DNA of 38,618 bases from positions 1-38,618 of the IMG/VR virus record IMGVR_UViG_3300033148_002826. One strand, written 5' to 3'. The position numbers and the translations under genes were made by a program. Positions 18,186-38,618 of the stretch are shown here, one piece after another; position 1 is the first letter of the stretch; every line of letters starts with the position of its first letter. Below the pieces are notes generated by a model. The model was not told the DNA's origin. It was given only the letters and a program-made list of their open reading frames with translations, and searched no databases. Source of the stretch: a virus.

Positions 18186-19145
18186 ATGTTTTTACTAGAT
18201 TTAATTAGAAAATGGTTTAAAAAAGAATACGGAACTGGACTTTTAGAAGATCCAATAGATTACAGGGACATATCAATGTCAGCAGTCAGTAAAAAGGAAT
18301 CCCCATTACCAGAGAGTTATACAATTCCTTATGTATTAGGAGTTAAAAAACAAGGTAGTGATCCAATATGTGTAGGTTGCTCAACATCTAGTTTAAAAGA
18401 AAACAAGGAACGAATAGAAGGAAACTTTATAGATTTTGATGCTTGGTGGTTGTATTCTGAATGTAAGAAGTCAGATGGTATGCCAGATTACCCAGGTACA
18501 TACTTTCGTAGTGGTCTTAAAGTCCTTCAGAAGATAGGTTGTAAGCCAGTAGACGGCGTTGTAAGCGATGAATATCGCATAGGTGGATATATCAGGGTCC
18601 CTTGTGATTACAAGAGCTTAAAACGGGCAATTTACGAATTTGGCGGAGTTCTTATAGGTTTTAAAGGAAGCAACAAAGGTTGGAAGTCAGCATATATACG
18701 ACCTCCTAAATCAGGGGAACATCAGTGGGGTCATGCTGTTTATGCTGTAGGATATGATAAAGAATATATAACTATACAAAATTCATGGGGCAAACATTGG
18801 GGTAAAAAAGGATACGGATATTTTAATGAAAAGTATTTACCTTTTTCGGCGTGGGCAATAGTTAATGATCTTCCTAATAATTGGAAAGAGCTACTTAAAA
18901 AACCAGAGAAACCAAAATATGAATTCATTAATAATCTTTACAAAGGATTACAGAATGAAGAAGTAAAGATTTTACAAGATTGTCTTAATTATCTTGGATG
19001 TATGAATTATAAAAGCACAGGATATTTTGGATCATTAACTTTTCAGGCTGTAAAAAACTTTCAAATAAGATATAATATATTTCCTCGTAGTGGTTTTGTC
19101 GGACCACTAACAAGGGAAAAATTAAATAATCAATTTAACAAATAA
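18186..19145 (+). CDS. Papain-like peptidase lysin with PG-binding domain
   Basis: 319 residues. Residues about 40-228 form a papain-fold (C1) cysteine peptidase: oxyanion Gln56 in KKQGSDPICVGCSTSS, catalytic Cys65, His183 in QWGHAVYAVGYD, and Asn199 in the IQNSWG motif. Residues about 250-319 are a peptidoglycan-binding type 1 domain (LYKGLQNEEVKILQDCLNYL, GYFGSLTFQAVKNFQ, GPLTREKLN). This combination suggests an endolysin that cuts peptide cross-links in peptidoglycan. There is no signal peptide; the basic N-terminus (LIRKWFKKEY) is amphipathic. It is followed 2 bases later by a holin-like gene. The start has the AAATAATAATATG leader and no Shine-Dalgarno. Confidence 0.8.
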   Translation: MFLLDLIRKWFKKEYGTGLLEDPIDYRDISMSAVSKKESPLPESYTIPYVLGVKKQGSDPICVGCSTSSLKENKERIEGNFIDFDAWWLYSECKKSDGMPDYPGTYFRSGLKVLQKIGCKPVDGVVSDEYRIGGYIRVPCDYKSLKRAIYEFGGVLIGFKGSNKGWKSAYIRPPKSGEHQWGHAVYAVGYDKEYITIQNSWGKHWGKKGYGYFNEKYLPFSAWAIVNDLPNNWKELLKKPEKPKYEFINNLYKGLQNEEVKILQDCLNYLGCMNYKSTGYFGSLTFQAVKNFQIRYNIFPRSGFVGPLTREKLNNQFNK

Positions 19146-19502: not shown

Positions 19503-19525
19503 AAAATTGGATAAATAAACAATAT

Positions 19526-19582
19526 CAACACACACTAAATCCCGCCTTTTCTTTGTGTGTTGAGGCGGGATTTTGATTTTTT
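19526..19582 (+). terminator. Terminator with interleaved second stem
   Basis: AAATCCCGCC (19537-19546) pairs perfectly with GGCGGGATTT (19564-19573), followed by T-rich sequence: a rho-independent terminator at the end of the lysis genes. CAACACACA (19526-19534) pairs with TGTGTGTTG (19554-19562), which lies in the terminator loop. The order of arms is therefore 1-2-1'-2', as in a pseudoknot. With linkers of 2, 7 and 1 bases the two stems can hardly form fully together, so they may be alternatives that switch termination. Confidence 0.8.
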
Positions 19583-19587
19583 AATTT

Positions 19588-32042: not shown

Positions 32043-32528
32043 ATGTCAGAAGAAACTACACAAGAAAAAGAGAATGATGTCAACGATAAAGCAGGGAGCA
32101 ATCAGGGAGAATATAAGGTAGGAGATAAAAAGCCACCTAAAGAACATCGGTTTAAAAAGGGTCAATCAGGAAACCCAAAAGGAAAGCCGAAAGGAACATT
32201 ATCAGTTGTAGCAGCACTTAAAAAGAAATTACAGGAAATACCAGACGATCCAAGTAATAAAGAAAGACGATCATATTTAGATATTCTTATTTTAAAGATA
32301 ATAAAGAAAGCAATAACTGGTGAAGATGTGGCAATGATAAAAGATATAATAGATAGAGTAGATGGAAAACCAAAGCAACCAATAGAAGCAGATATAAGTT
32401 TAACATCTCAGGCAAAAGAAGGCGCAGAAAAATTAAATGATTTAATAAATGACCTTACAGGAGAAACAAAAGAAACTAGCAAAGAATCTACTAAAGTTAT
32501 TCCAGATAGACGGGAAACCAGCAAATGA
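32043..32528 (+). CDS. terS: Terminase small subunit-like (DUF5681)
   Basis: 161 residues from the ATG at 32043; a GTG start at 32031 would add four residues. KKPPKEHRFKKGQSGNPKGK (about 29-48) is the hallmark of DUF5681 proteins encoded next to large terminases, followed by helical regions (SVVAALKKKLQEIP; DILILKIIKKAI) and a disordered, Thr/Ser/Glu-rich end. It would recognise the packaging site and load DNA onto the large subunit. It overlaps the large terminase frame by 80 bases in another frame, which is long for a phage. Confidence 0.7.
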   Translation: MSEETTQEKENDVNDKAGSNQGEYKVGDKKPPKEHRFKKGQSGNPKGKPKGTLSVVAALKKKLQEIPDDPSNKERRSYLDILILKIIKKAITGEDVAMIKDIIDRVDGKPKQPIEADISLTSQAKEGAEKLNDLINDLTGETKETSKESTKVIPDRRETSK

Positions 32529-34830
32529 AGCAATAACAGAAGGTCAGTTAGATATATTTAGTTCATTGATATTTAGAAACAAGAATAGAGTTCAGATTAT
32601 AACTTCTACTCAATATGGAAAGCTAATAGCTAATGATGTTCCAGTTTGGACTAATAAAGGATGGAAAAAACATGGAGAATTAAAAGTAGGAGATTATGTT
32701 TTTAACCATTTAGGAAAAAGAGTCAAAATAATAGTAATAGGAGAAAAGCAGTTTGCTAATAAAGAAGTAATTTTTACAAATGGAGAAAAGATAAAATGTC
32801 ATGAAAATCATGAATGGATTGTTTGGAATGAAAATTGGGATGAATATAAAGTGATTCAAACCAATGAGATAGAAAAATATAAAATAATAATGTCAATTCC
32901 TAAGGTTAAACCCTTAGAAGGAAAAGGAGAATTAGACATTGATCCATATTTTTTAGGAGCTTGGTTGGGAGATGGAACATCAAAAAAGCCATCAATAACA
33001 ATACATCCAAATGATAAAGACATTATTGATAGAATACCATATAAATTATCAGCAGTTCATATTCATAAAATAACAGGAATAAAAACATTTGAATTTTACA
33101 AAAATGGATTATTAGACAGATTAAGAGAGAATAATTTATATAATAATAAGCACATTCCATTAAAATATAAGTTAGCTTCGTTGAAAGATAGATTGGAATT
33201 ATTAGCTGGTTTAATAGATACTGATGGATCGGTTAATAAGGATTATAGAGAAAAAGGATGGAAAAATGGTAGAGTATATATAATAAATACTAATAAAATT
33301 TTAATTGATGATGTTAGAGATATAATTCACGGACTGGGGATAAGAACAAGCATAACAAAAGTTAAAGCGTGTAAATCATCAAGTGGAATACAAGGAAAAA
33401 AGGATGTATATTATTTAGGATTTCAACCCAACATAAATATACCAACAGTTCTTTTAAGAAAAAAAGTAAATTATAGAGAAAGTAAACGAAGTATTAGAAT
33501 TAAAGAAATAATAGACATAGAGTCAGAGAGTGGTAATTGTATTCAGGTTGAAGGGGGAATATATCTTGTAGGTAAGACAATGATTCCTACTCATAATTCT
33601 TTAATAACAGCATTAGCTTGTTTAGTAATCAGTTGTATTCAGAAAGAGTTAGTAGCAGTAGTAGCTCCTAACAAAGAAAAAGCAAAGATAATAATGCGAT
33701 ACTATATTGAGCATTTATCAGATAATCCTGTATTTTGGTCACAGCTTGAAAAGAATACAAAGCTTGAAAGATTAAGACAAGAGGAGAGCAAAGAGCGTAT
33801 TATACTAAACAACGAAGGAGGTATATTCGTTGTATCAGCTCAAGCAGGAAACGCTGTAAAAGGAGTAGAATCTGCTATGGGAGAAGGTGCTAAAATAGTT
33901 ATTCAAGATGAGAGTTGTTTAATCCCCGATCAGACAGAGTCTTCAATTTATCGTATGATTGCTGGATACAAAGATGGATTCTATTGTAAGATCGGAAACC
34001 CTTTTTATAGAAATCACTTTTTAAAGAGTTGGAGAAGTGAAAAGTATCAAAAGATATTTATTGATTATTTCCAAGGTTTAAAAGAAGGTAGATATACACA
34101 AGAGTTTATTGAAGAAGCAAAAAAGAAACCGAACTTTGATATATTATTTGGTTGTAAGTTCCCTGACGCAGATATGATAGATCAGAAAGGATATTCTGTA
34201 TTGTTAGCAGAAAGTGATATTAAACAAGGTGAAGTTAATCCTTTTGGAGAAATACGAATGGGAGTTGATGTAGCAGAAGGAGGAGGAAATTATAATGTAA
34301 TCGTTTTAAGATGGGATAATACAGCTAAAGTAGTTCTTAAATATCAATCAGAGAATACAATGGATTTAGTTGGTAGAATTATTCAGATCGGAAATGAATA
34401 CGATATTTTGCCAGATAACATTTTTGTAGATTCAATAGGAGTAGGAAAAGGAGTTTGTGATCGTTTAGAAGAAAATTATAATAAAAAAGTAAGAACAATT
34501 AACGGAGTTAAAGTATCAGAAAAAGCTCAAGATTCAAAGCTTTACTTTAATAAAAGAGCAGAGAATTACTGGAGATTAAGACAATGGATTAAACAAGGAG
34601 CGATATTAGAACCCAATAATGACTGGAATCAATTAGAAGACATTAAGTATAAAGTAAAAGATAGTTCAGGACAATTATTGATAATGCCCAAAGATGAAAT
34701 GAGGAAAGAAGGTTATGAGAGTCCTGATATTGCTGACGCTTTAATGCTTACATTTTCAAGAATAGACTTTTCAGGAGGTAAAGTAGTAACAAATAGAGTA
34801 AAACCTCCTTCAACTTATAAAAAACGCTGA
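32449..34830 (+). CDS. terL: Terminase large subunit, interrupted by an intein
   Basis: 793 residues, of which 325 (59-383) are an intein, leaving a 468-residue terminase, a normal length. The Walker A motif reads STQYGK at 53-58 and continues with S384 LITALACL after the intein. Walker B is AKIVIQDES. The C-terminal nuclease has MGVDVAEGGGNYNVIVLRWD, DNIFVDSIGVGKGVCDRL and YESPDIADALMLTF. It packages DNA into the prohead using ATP and cuts it. Without splicing the ATPase site would be broken, so protein splicing is required. The first 26 codons overlap the small subunit gene. Confidence 0.9.
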   Translation: MTLQEKQKKLAKNLLKLFQIDGKPANEAITEGQLDIFSSLIFRNKNRVQIITSTQYGKLIANDVPVWTNKGWKKHGELKVGDYVFNHLGKRVKIIVIGEKQFANKEVIFTNGEKIKCHENHEWIVWNENWDEYKVIQTNEIEKYKIIMSIPKVKPLEGKGELDIDPYFLGAWLGDGTSKKPSITIHPNDKDIIDRIPYKLSAVHIHKITGIKTFEFYKNGLLDRLRENNLYNNKHIPLKYKLASLKDRLELLAGLIDTDGSVNKDYREKGWKNGRVYIINTNKILIDDVRDIIHGLGIRTSITKVKACKSSSGIQGKKDVYYLGFQPNINIPTVLLRKKVNYRESKRSIRIKEIIDIESESGNCIQVEGGIYLVGKTMIPTHNSLITALACLVISCIQKELVAVVAPNKEKAKIIMRYYIEHLSDNPVFWSQLEKNTKLERLRQEESKERIILNNEGGIFVVSAQAGNAVKGVESAMGEGAKIVIQDESCLIPDQTESSIYRMIAGYKDGFYCKIGNPFYRNHFLKSWRSEKYQKIFIDYFQGLKEGRYTQEFIEEAKKKPNFDILFGCKFPDADMIDQKGYSVLLAESDIKQGEVNPFGEIRMGVDVAEGGGNYNVIVLRWDNTAKVVLKYQSENTMDLVGRIIQIGNEYDILPDNIFVDSIGVGKGVCDRLEENYNKKVRTINGVKVSEKAQDSKLYFNKRAENYWRLRQWIKQGAILEPNNDWNQLEDIKYKVKDSSGQLLIMPKDEMRKEGYESPDIADALMLTFSRIDFSGGKVVTNRVKPPSTYKKR
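32623..33597 (+). mobile_element. Class 3 intein with LAGLIDADG endonuclease
   Basis: 325 residues between K58 and S384 of the terminase. It begins LIANDVPVWTNKGWKKHGEL, with no Cys, Ser or Ala at position 1. Block B is KIKCHENHEWIV with Trp123; block F is NCIQVEGGIYLVG with Cys364; block G is IPTHN with Thr381, His382 and Asn383, then Ser384. This W-C-T triplet is the signature of class 3 inteins, where the block F Cys starts splicing. Two endonuclease motifs are present, YFLGAWLGDGT (167-177) and LLAGLIDTDGS (251-261), with intact acidic residues. It is probably an active homing element. Confidence 0.9.
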
Positions 34831-38025: not shown

Positions 38026-38051
38026 AATAAAATTAACAATTATGTTATAAA

Positions 38052-38130
38052 GTTAAGTCGCTGACCATGGGTGGTTGAATGTTGCCCCTGGTACTTACAA
38101 AGTTTTCAGCGACTTAACAGTACCAGGTGC
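38052..38130 (+). ncRNA. Pseudoknot-ordered RNA before the scaffold gene
   Basis: GTTAAGTCGCTGA (38052-38064) pairs perfectly, 13 bp, with TCAGCGACTTAAC (38106-38118). GCCCCTGGTACT (38084-38095), in the loop of that stem, pairs with AGTACCAGGTGC (38119-38130), 11 of 12. Arm order is 1-2-1'-2' with no base between 1' and 2', so the stems could stack end to end; loops are 19 and 10 bases. A terminator follows at 38138. Good candidate for a riboswitch, an antitermination site or a nuclease-resistant RNA; a DNA site is also possible. Confidence 0.8.
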
Positions 38131-38137
38131 GACATTG

Positions 38138-38160
38138 AGTCACTTATAGTGGCTTTTTTT
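38138..38160 (+). terminator. Rho-independent terminator before the scaffold gene
   Basis: AGTCACT (38138-38144) pairs with AGTGGCT (38148-38154) with a 3-base loop, followed by T6. It lies 33 bases before the scaffold start, directly after the pseudoknot-like RNA, so it either ends the packaging transcript or acts as an attenuator for the head genes. Confidence 0.8.
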
Positions 38161-38193
38161 AATGTCTGTGCGGACTTTAAACGCATTAATCTT

Positions 38194-38618
38194 ATGGCTG
38201 AAATACAAGATAAGGGGTCTTTAAAAGACGCAGACGAAACTGCTACTTCTCCAGCCCCAGAGGAGGAAACAAACAAAGATGATTCAAAGCTCGGTAAGGA
38301 CGAGTCTAAACTAACAGAATCATCTCAAAACGCTGATGATGCTGGAAGTTCAGAAGCACCAGATGATCCAGTCGTACCATCTGATGATATTGACTACGAG
38401 GCAGAGTACGAAGACGAAAAACAAAAGAGAATAAAAGCTGAAAAGGCTATTGTTAAGCTTAAAAAGCTAAACAAGTCTGACGGTGACGATGAAGATAGTC
38501 CTTTAACTTCTGAAATTATCCAAGAAACCATTAAAAGTGAATTGGATAAGGTTGAAGCACAAAAAGCTGAAGACTTAGTTGACAGCTTTATAGAGGAAAT
38601 GTCTAGTGATGAAAACGA
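38194..38618 (+). CDS. Scaffold-like acidic head protein, N-terminal part
   Basis: Starts at the ATG at 38194 (after CATTAATCTT) and runs off the window; the rest is at 1-433, in the same frame. The N-terminus (MAEIQDKGSLKDADETATSP) and the region up to about residue 75 are disordered and rich in Asp, Glu, Ser and Pro. A helix follows (DEKQKRIKAEKAIVKLKKLN). A long acidic disordered start and a helical end are usual for scaffolding proteins. Expression probably depends on passing the terminator at 38138. Confidence 0.6.
   Translation, partial: MAEIQDKGSLKDADETATSPAPEEETNKDDSKLGKDESKLTESSQNADDAGSSEAPDDPVVPSDDIDYEAEYEDEKQKRIKAEKAIVKLKKLNKSDGDDEDSPLTSEIIQETIKSELDKVEAQKAEDLVDSFIEEMSSDEN
38505..38618. 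repeat. Direct terminal repeat (right copy)
   Basis: Identical to 1-114. It most likely reflects the overlap of a circular contig rather than a true terminal repeat, because it lies within a gene and is very short. Confidence 0.95.

Follow-up and report, generated by a model that had tools for sequence, protein, structure and literature searches.

A probable transcription attenuator of interlocked RNA hairpins, followed by a compact pseudoknot, ahead of the capsid genes of an uncultured phage

What is the role of two interleaved stems and a terminator that stand just ahead of the head genes of a phage? The question is raised by a short region near the end of virus record IMGVR_UViG_3300033148_002826, which was analyzed over its full 38,618 nucleotides (the window). 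An earlier note on this DNA had suggested a new riboswitch, an antiterminator RNA such as a put-like element, or a packaging site. It now appears fairly probable that the region acts in cis as a bistable attenuator of transcription, placed in the leader of the capsid operon (scaffold, decoration, and major capsid genes). The computed support consists of a conserved layout, alternative pairings, covariation, and promoter enrichment. Termination would alternate with read-through, and the balance between them may be set by the speed of elongation, by a protein, or by another RNA.

The window ends in an identical direct repeat of 114 bp (1-114 and 38505-38618), which indicates that the phage genome is circular and apparently complete, at about 38.5 kb. 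A scaffold-type gene begins at 38194 on the + strand. Its first 141 codons reach to 38618, and it continues at the window start. This gene has the same position as the scaffold-type ORFs in the loci of relatives; the label rests on position and composition because the 38194-38618 part has no PHROG match. A decoration-type protein (443-955) lies between the scaffold-type gene and the major capsid protein (971-1903, + strand), which lies farther down the same operon, beyond the junction of the contig ends. The homologue of this capsid protein in one relative, L018, matches Pfam Mu-like_gpT and Phage_capsid_4. The region had been described as lying before the head genes, and this is true only because the contig is circular, with the operon running from the scaffold gene at 38194 through the window start to the capsid gene. 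Upstream of the leader, a terminase gene and three small genes accompany the gene for a portal protein, which has a connector match to PHROG 332. The terminase large subunit gene (32449-34830) has a LAGLIDADG homing endonuclease domain inside it, with a weak intein-splicing match. Elsewhere, the product of 18186-19145 is a cysteine protease of the papain family that also has a peptidoglycan-binding domain and perhaps serves in lysis or entry. One portal relative sits in a Candidatus Falkowbacteria MAG. Given this relative and the small size of the MAG to which the window belongs (1.2 Mb), the hosts are probably Patescibacteria.

All parts of the region are on the + strand. Arm a (38052-38064) is the 5′ arm of the first hairpin and the proposed anti-antiterminator. 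It pairs with arm a′ (38106-38118) around a loop of 41 nt, and all 13 of the 13 pairs are Watson-Crick, so the perfect 13-bp stem seen earlier is real. The loop was also said to pair with bases directly after this stem, and it does: strand b′ (38119-38136), a partner of loop strand b (38070-38095), starts at the base that follows the end of a′ at 38118. The second stem itself exists, only not as the single 12-bp run that had been described. It is an interrupted helix of 24 pairs, four of them G-U, in which 38087-38095 pairs with 38119-38127 (9 bp, spacer of 0 to a′), 38078-38085 pairs with 38129-38136 (8 bp), and 38070-38076 pairs with 38138-38144 (7 bp). The last of these partners is the 5′ arm of the intrinsic terminator, which was correctly placed after the stems (38138-38160; second arm 38148-38154, T run to 38160). 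This arm therefore doubles in the window as the last part of the helix, and because 7 of the pairs of b reach into it, b can be read as the antiterminator strand. Two marks of an attenuator are present in the window, a terminator ahead of an operon and an alternative helix that takes the 5′ arm of this terminator. A possible extended -10 (TGTTATAAA, 38043-38051, + strand), proposed from the sequence and a motif scan, abuts arm a. If used, it would place the start of transcription inside a. The sigma-70 scan listed no + strand promoter in the window leader, where TGTTATAAA is only a weak -10-like candidate.

The pairing was claimed to be far above chance, and it is. A segment of 151 nt folds with z = -5.0, and none of 200 shuffles was as good. 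The b duplex of the window has an energy of -33.7 kcal/mol (z -7.1, p 0.003) with 7 of 7 terminator-arm bases engaged. The interleaved pair is the top-scoring one on either strand of the whole 38.6-kb window. Its score is 55, and only 2 of 1920 shuffled terminator upstreams reached 44. Another interleaved pair is found at 19525-19583, where TCAACACACA/TGTGTGTTGA is interlocked with AAATCCCGCCTT/GAGGCGGGATTT. A T run follows AAATCCCGCCTT/GAGGCGGGATTT, and the stem may compete with that terminator. A partner in trans for the 13-mer of arm a was sought in the window's assembly with at most one mismatch, and the only sites were a and a′; the 10-base core of arm a has two more sites with one mismatch within the window.

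A phage collection was searched by DNA similarity and by protein, and neither gave a relative. Scans that used the portal protein of L063 or of L050 as the single query returned only self-matches, and a portal profile run against 378 genomes of the class matched nothing but the contig of the window. IMG/VR scans with the portal and capsid protein, together with genome contigs, gave about 165 loci, several of which share one contig. In many of these loci, the gap before the scaffold gene repeats the order a, b, a′, b′, and terminator in unrelated letters. Many relatives are without the element; some possess just a long simple hairpin and some have almost no spacer. An automatic scan found no terminator in 40 of 70 leaders, L016 with its short T run being counted among them.

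Two tests were free of hand selection. One scored interleaved pairs at terminators and the other chose a:a′ blind to b. Loci L001-L003, L005, L007-L009, L011-L013, and L108 (one contig duplicated) were omitted from both, and loci too short past the portal were skipped. An interleaved score of at least 44 was found at 12 of 96 target terminators, at 2 of 357 others on the + strand, and at 1 of 738 on the minus strand, as compared with the shuffled rate given above. One of the two + strand cases, L103, is really upstream of a scaffold gene, outside the labelled range, and the match at L080:1491 consists of repeated GGGGTTGGGCA units. In the blind test, a helix between the loop and the downstream strand reached a z of -3.5 or lower at 20 of 27 target terminators; the controls gave one positive among 34 other + strand terminators and one among 49 minus strand terminators. 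The terminator arm was engaged in 18 of the 20 target positives. The + strand control positive, L064:1471, is an A/T-rich hairpin cluster. The minus strand positive, L010 (+ coordinates about 2190-1973), is followed on the same strand by a pseudoknot and the scaffold, decoration, and capsid genes. The portal and capsid cassettes of L010 are on opposite strands, and both the attenuator and the pseudoknot stay with the capsid cassette. Thus, the element travels with the capsid cassette and not with the portal genes.

The alternative pairings were explored in 22 elements, which were delimited by eye after the b helices had been seen. In 21 of these hand-delimited elements, the helix that the loop strand forms with the bases past a′ beats shuffles (p <= 0.007); L100 fails the duplex test (p = 0.66). 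At least four terminator-arm bases are engaged in 19 of the 22. When the terminator arm alone is the target, p is 0.05 or less in 12 of the 22, and an automatic ungapped arm test, which is too weak, beats shuffles in 4 of 30 (window p = 0.42). The pairing signal stems from the whole helix rather than from the terminator arm alone.

A covariation search in relatives had been put forward as a check, and its outcome is favorable, both in the recurrence of one layout with unrelated letters and in compensatory changes between L050 and L109. The portals of these two loci are 87% alike. All 55 tested pairs are kept (110 of 110 cells). Two pairs, one belonging to the antiterminator and the other to a pseudoknot stem, have changed on both sides by compensation, and two one-sided changes also keep pairing. 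Exchanges of G-U for A-U and of U-A for U-G preserve the pairing in RNA only. The shuffle control (139 of 500) is weak because there are only two sequences; when the partners were slid by 1-3 columns, pairing fell to 26-43%. Three terminator pairs flagged as broken in this alignment are due to gap placement, as L109 reads CAACC...GGTTG. The strand is indicated as well. Among the helix pairs, 55 of 500 are G-U on the + strand and 23 of 462 on the minus strand, and the + strand helix has the lower energy in 16 of 22 elements (p = 0.03). Nine of the 22 elements have a TATAAT in the 70 nt upstream of a, where 2.0 would be expected. In eight of them this TATAAT is perfect and its end lies 10-25 nt from a, in the ninth (L018) it overlaps a, and the window is not among them. 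In the loci that have it, the element would thereby belong to an operon leader.

How the region could switch was explored by ensemble folding of the 22 elements, run without pseudoknots. When a′ has just emerged, a:a′ is dominant in 22 of 22. Once the first terminator arm is out, the antiterminator is dominant in 17 of 22. In the full RNA at equilibrium, the antiterminator is preferred in 13 of 22 and the terminator in 9 of 22, and the window is on the read-through side (antiterminator 0.91). Since the full RNA favors the terminator in only these nine, termination in the rest, including the window, must be kinetic. The spare loop beyond a′ measures only 1-8 nt in 15 of 22 elements (a single nucleotide in L016, L032, and L133) and 10 nt in the window. 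With so little spare loop, the complete a:a′ and the complete b:b′ should exclude each other, and stems a and b should be alternatives in most members rather than parts of a lasting, stacked pseudoknot as had been envisaged. In the window, the 10 spare nucleotides may still leave room for a partial pseudoknot, in which a:a′ would coexist with the 9-bp part of the second helix. This exclusion would come from interlocking, as the two hairpins share no bases. In the emerging RNA, a:a′ would pair first and hold b in its loop. If a:a′ persists until the second terminator arm is made, the terminator would form and transcription would stop. If a:a′ is displaced, b would take b′ and the first terminator arm as the antiterminator, and the capsid genes would be read. 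The choice would be made once the first terminator arm exists and before the second does. Leader peptides do not appear to be involved, as the mini-ORFs spotted by eye are not conserved.

Some of these observations could also be explained by a small-RNA gene, made up of a promoter, a structured RNA of about 100 nt, and a terminator. Its product would function in trans or in packaging, with a separate start for the capsid genes. The TATAAT that ends 10-25 nt upstream of a in eight elements and an sRNA-sized span from promoter to terminator fit this, as does the long b:b′ hairpin favored at equilibrium in 13 of 22 full sequences. A small-RNA gene is unlikely, however, because the arm sequences are not conserved and such an RNA would not need its loop strand to pair with the terminator arm. 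The element of L010 accompanies an inverted capsid cassette and so behaves as the leader of that operon, and in the window, with no + strand promoter listed, the T run and the scaffold start are separated by 33 nt that are filled by a pseudoknot. It is likewise improbable that the terminator is an ordinary one that ends the portal operon, with a strong 5′ hairpin that shields the capsid mRNA and an interlocking that has no part in switching. Although other relatives do carry a long hairpin without a terminator at the same place, a conserved helix that disables the terminator would then be unexpected. The terminator arm was engaged in 18 of 27 blind targets as compared with 2 of 83 controls, one of which is a real element (L010).

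The interleaved order and the 10 spare nucleotides of the window, which allow a partial pseudoknot of a:a′ with the 9-bp part, would suit a stable H-type pseudoknot that serves in antitermination (put-like) or senses a ligand (riboswitch). A stable pseudoknot with such a function is very improbable given the short spare loop of most elements and the absence of shared sequence. A riboswitch would be known by a conserved aptamer of a known class, and the arms are unrelated between loci, with no aptamer-like conservation. Neither the attenuator nor the pseudoknot of the window has an Rfam match at the gathering score. Below it, the window gave three chance-like microRNA-family matches, and the sub-threshold searches overall gave weak microRNA and sRNA matches only, all far under the gathering scores. 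A perfect inverted repeat that adjoins packaging and head genes could also be a DNA feature, with overlapping inverted repeats for packaging, replication, or protein binding. This is hardly credible, as the layout, the G-U excess of the + strand, the U run, and the promoter enrichment all point to a + strand RNA, and the L050/L109 exchanges keep pairing in RNA only. The packaging site proposed earlier has no evidence in its favor. The transcription attenuator thus remains the preferred reading.

Read-through past the attenuator would yield an RNA that bears a compact pseudoknot just ahead of the scaffold start, probably as a second, translational control point. In the window, this is the H-type pseudoknot GTC-T-GTGCG-GAC-TTTAAA-CGCAT (38164-38186, + strand), 7 nt before the scaffold start codon. 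A pseudoknot score of at least 20 within 60 nt of the start was found in 42 of 66 scaffold leaders, 41 of 621 other gene starts, and 395 of 6600 shuffles; the window scores 19, just below this line. The 66 scaffold starts were chosen by hand from ORF gaps, and the start codon of L074 is unconfirmed. The 42 scoring leaders have 40 distinct stem-2 5′ strands, and their pseudoknots lie a median of 10 nt from the start. Tandem pseudoknots are present in some leaders (L041, L050, L100, and L127). Compensatory changes were seen in L095 as compared with L093/L099, and in the L054/L060/L057/L064 group, where L063 is unpaired at two alignment columns and L064 has one gapped cell. This covariation comes from relatives of the family, as close relatives of the window were not found.

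The pseudoknot is more widespread among relatives than the attenuator. Because it also occurs in leaders that lack the attenuator, the two elements can be separated. It recurs before the scaffold gene across phages in which the likeness of the capsid proteins goes down to about 30%. The idea that it replaces a Shine-Dalgarno motif was dropped, as SD-like motifs are rare everywhere (7 of 66 scaffold starts and 39 of 625 others) and nothing is specific to the scaffold gene. From their start regions, these phages do not seem to use Shine-Dalgarno motifs. TTAAA precedes the start in 26 of 66 scaffold genes and 158 of 621 others, a modest difference. Three leaders (L136:5099-5314, L138:5121-5338, and L162:5089-5307) have a long hairpin, then an AGGT-AA-CTTT-G-ACCT pseudoknot candidate, and then a second pseudoknot. 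The first candidate has an inserted hairpin and a GGTTCGAAT stretch that is tRNA T-loop-like.

A broader picture is possible, if still doubtful. The capsid assembly genes of a large uncultured phage group may widely be under a two-tier RNA control. A kinetic attenuator that excludes by interlocking rather than by strand sharing would be followed at the scaffold start by compact pseudoknots of a new family, in some cases in tandem, through which the scaffold or the capsid protein of the head would regulate its own production. If they work as proposed, phages of uncultured bacteria control head assembly through RNA folding. Since conservation is confined to the pairing, searches by sequence miss such RNAs.

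Searches of the open-access literature found no published description of the interlocked attenuator layout and no report of a pseudoknot or other structured RNA at the capsid genes of a phage. Attenuators with a terminator, an antiterminator, and a 5′ anti-antiterminator are represented by the pyr/PyrR, trp, and T-box types, and B. subtilis rplJL reportedly has an attenuator of the terminator/antiterminator kind. The region shares with the pyr/PyrR, trp, and T-box attenuators an early hairpin, an antiterminator that seizes the 5′ arm of the terminator, an intrinsic terminator, and a place in an operon leader. Unlike them, it has no conserved binding sequence and no recognized leader peptide, it precedes phage capsid genes, and its early hairpin and antiterminator are interlocked with no shared bases. 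To our knowledge, this interlocked geometry and the place before phage capsid genes are unusual. The put RNA of phage HK022 consists of two hairpins of defined sequence, acts on RNA polymerase, and lets it pass distant terminators. By description, it too is a phage RNA structure that affects termination; the RNA here differs in that it pairs directly with its own terminator. The pRNA of phi29 is, again by description, another structured phage RNA near head genes, and is set apart because there is no sign of a conserved stand-alone RNA here.

For the pseudoknot, the nearest likeness is the leader of T4 gene 32. According to a 2010 review of T4 post-transcriptional control, this leader has a pseudoknot 67 nt upstream of the gene for the single-strand binding protein and binds that protein, and it may be the only viral example of a pseudoknot in translational autoregulation (PMC3014915). 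Both systems have a compact H-type pseudoknot upstream of a phage gene, with A+U-rich sequence up to the start (PMC3014915). The pseudoknots here differ in their median distance of 10 nt, in the scaffold-type gene that they precede, in being tandem in some leaders, and in being known from sequence alone. The scaffold-start pseudoknot takes the place of the T4 gene 32 operator and may share its mode of action.
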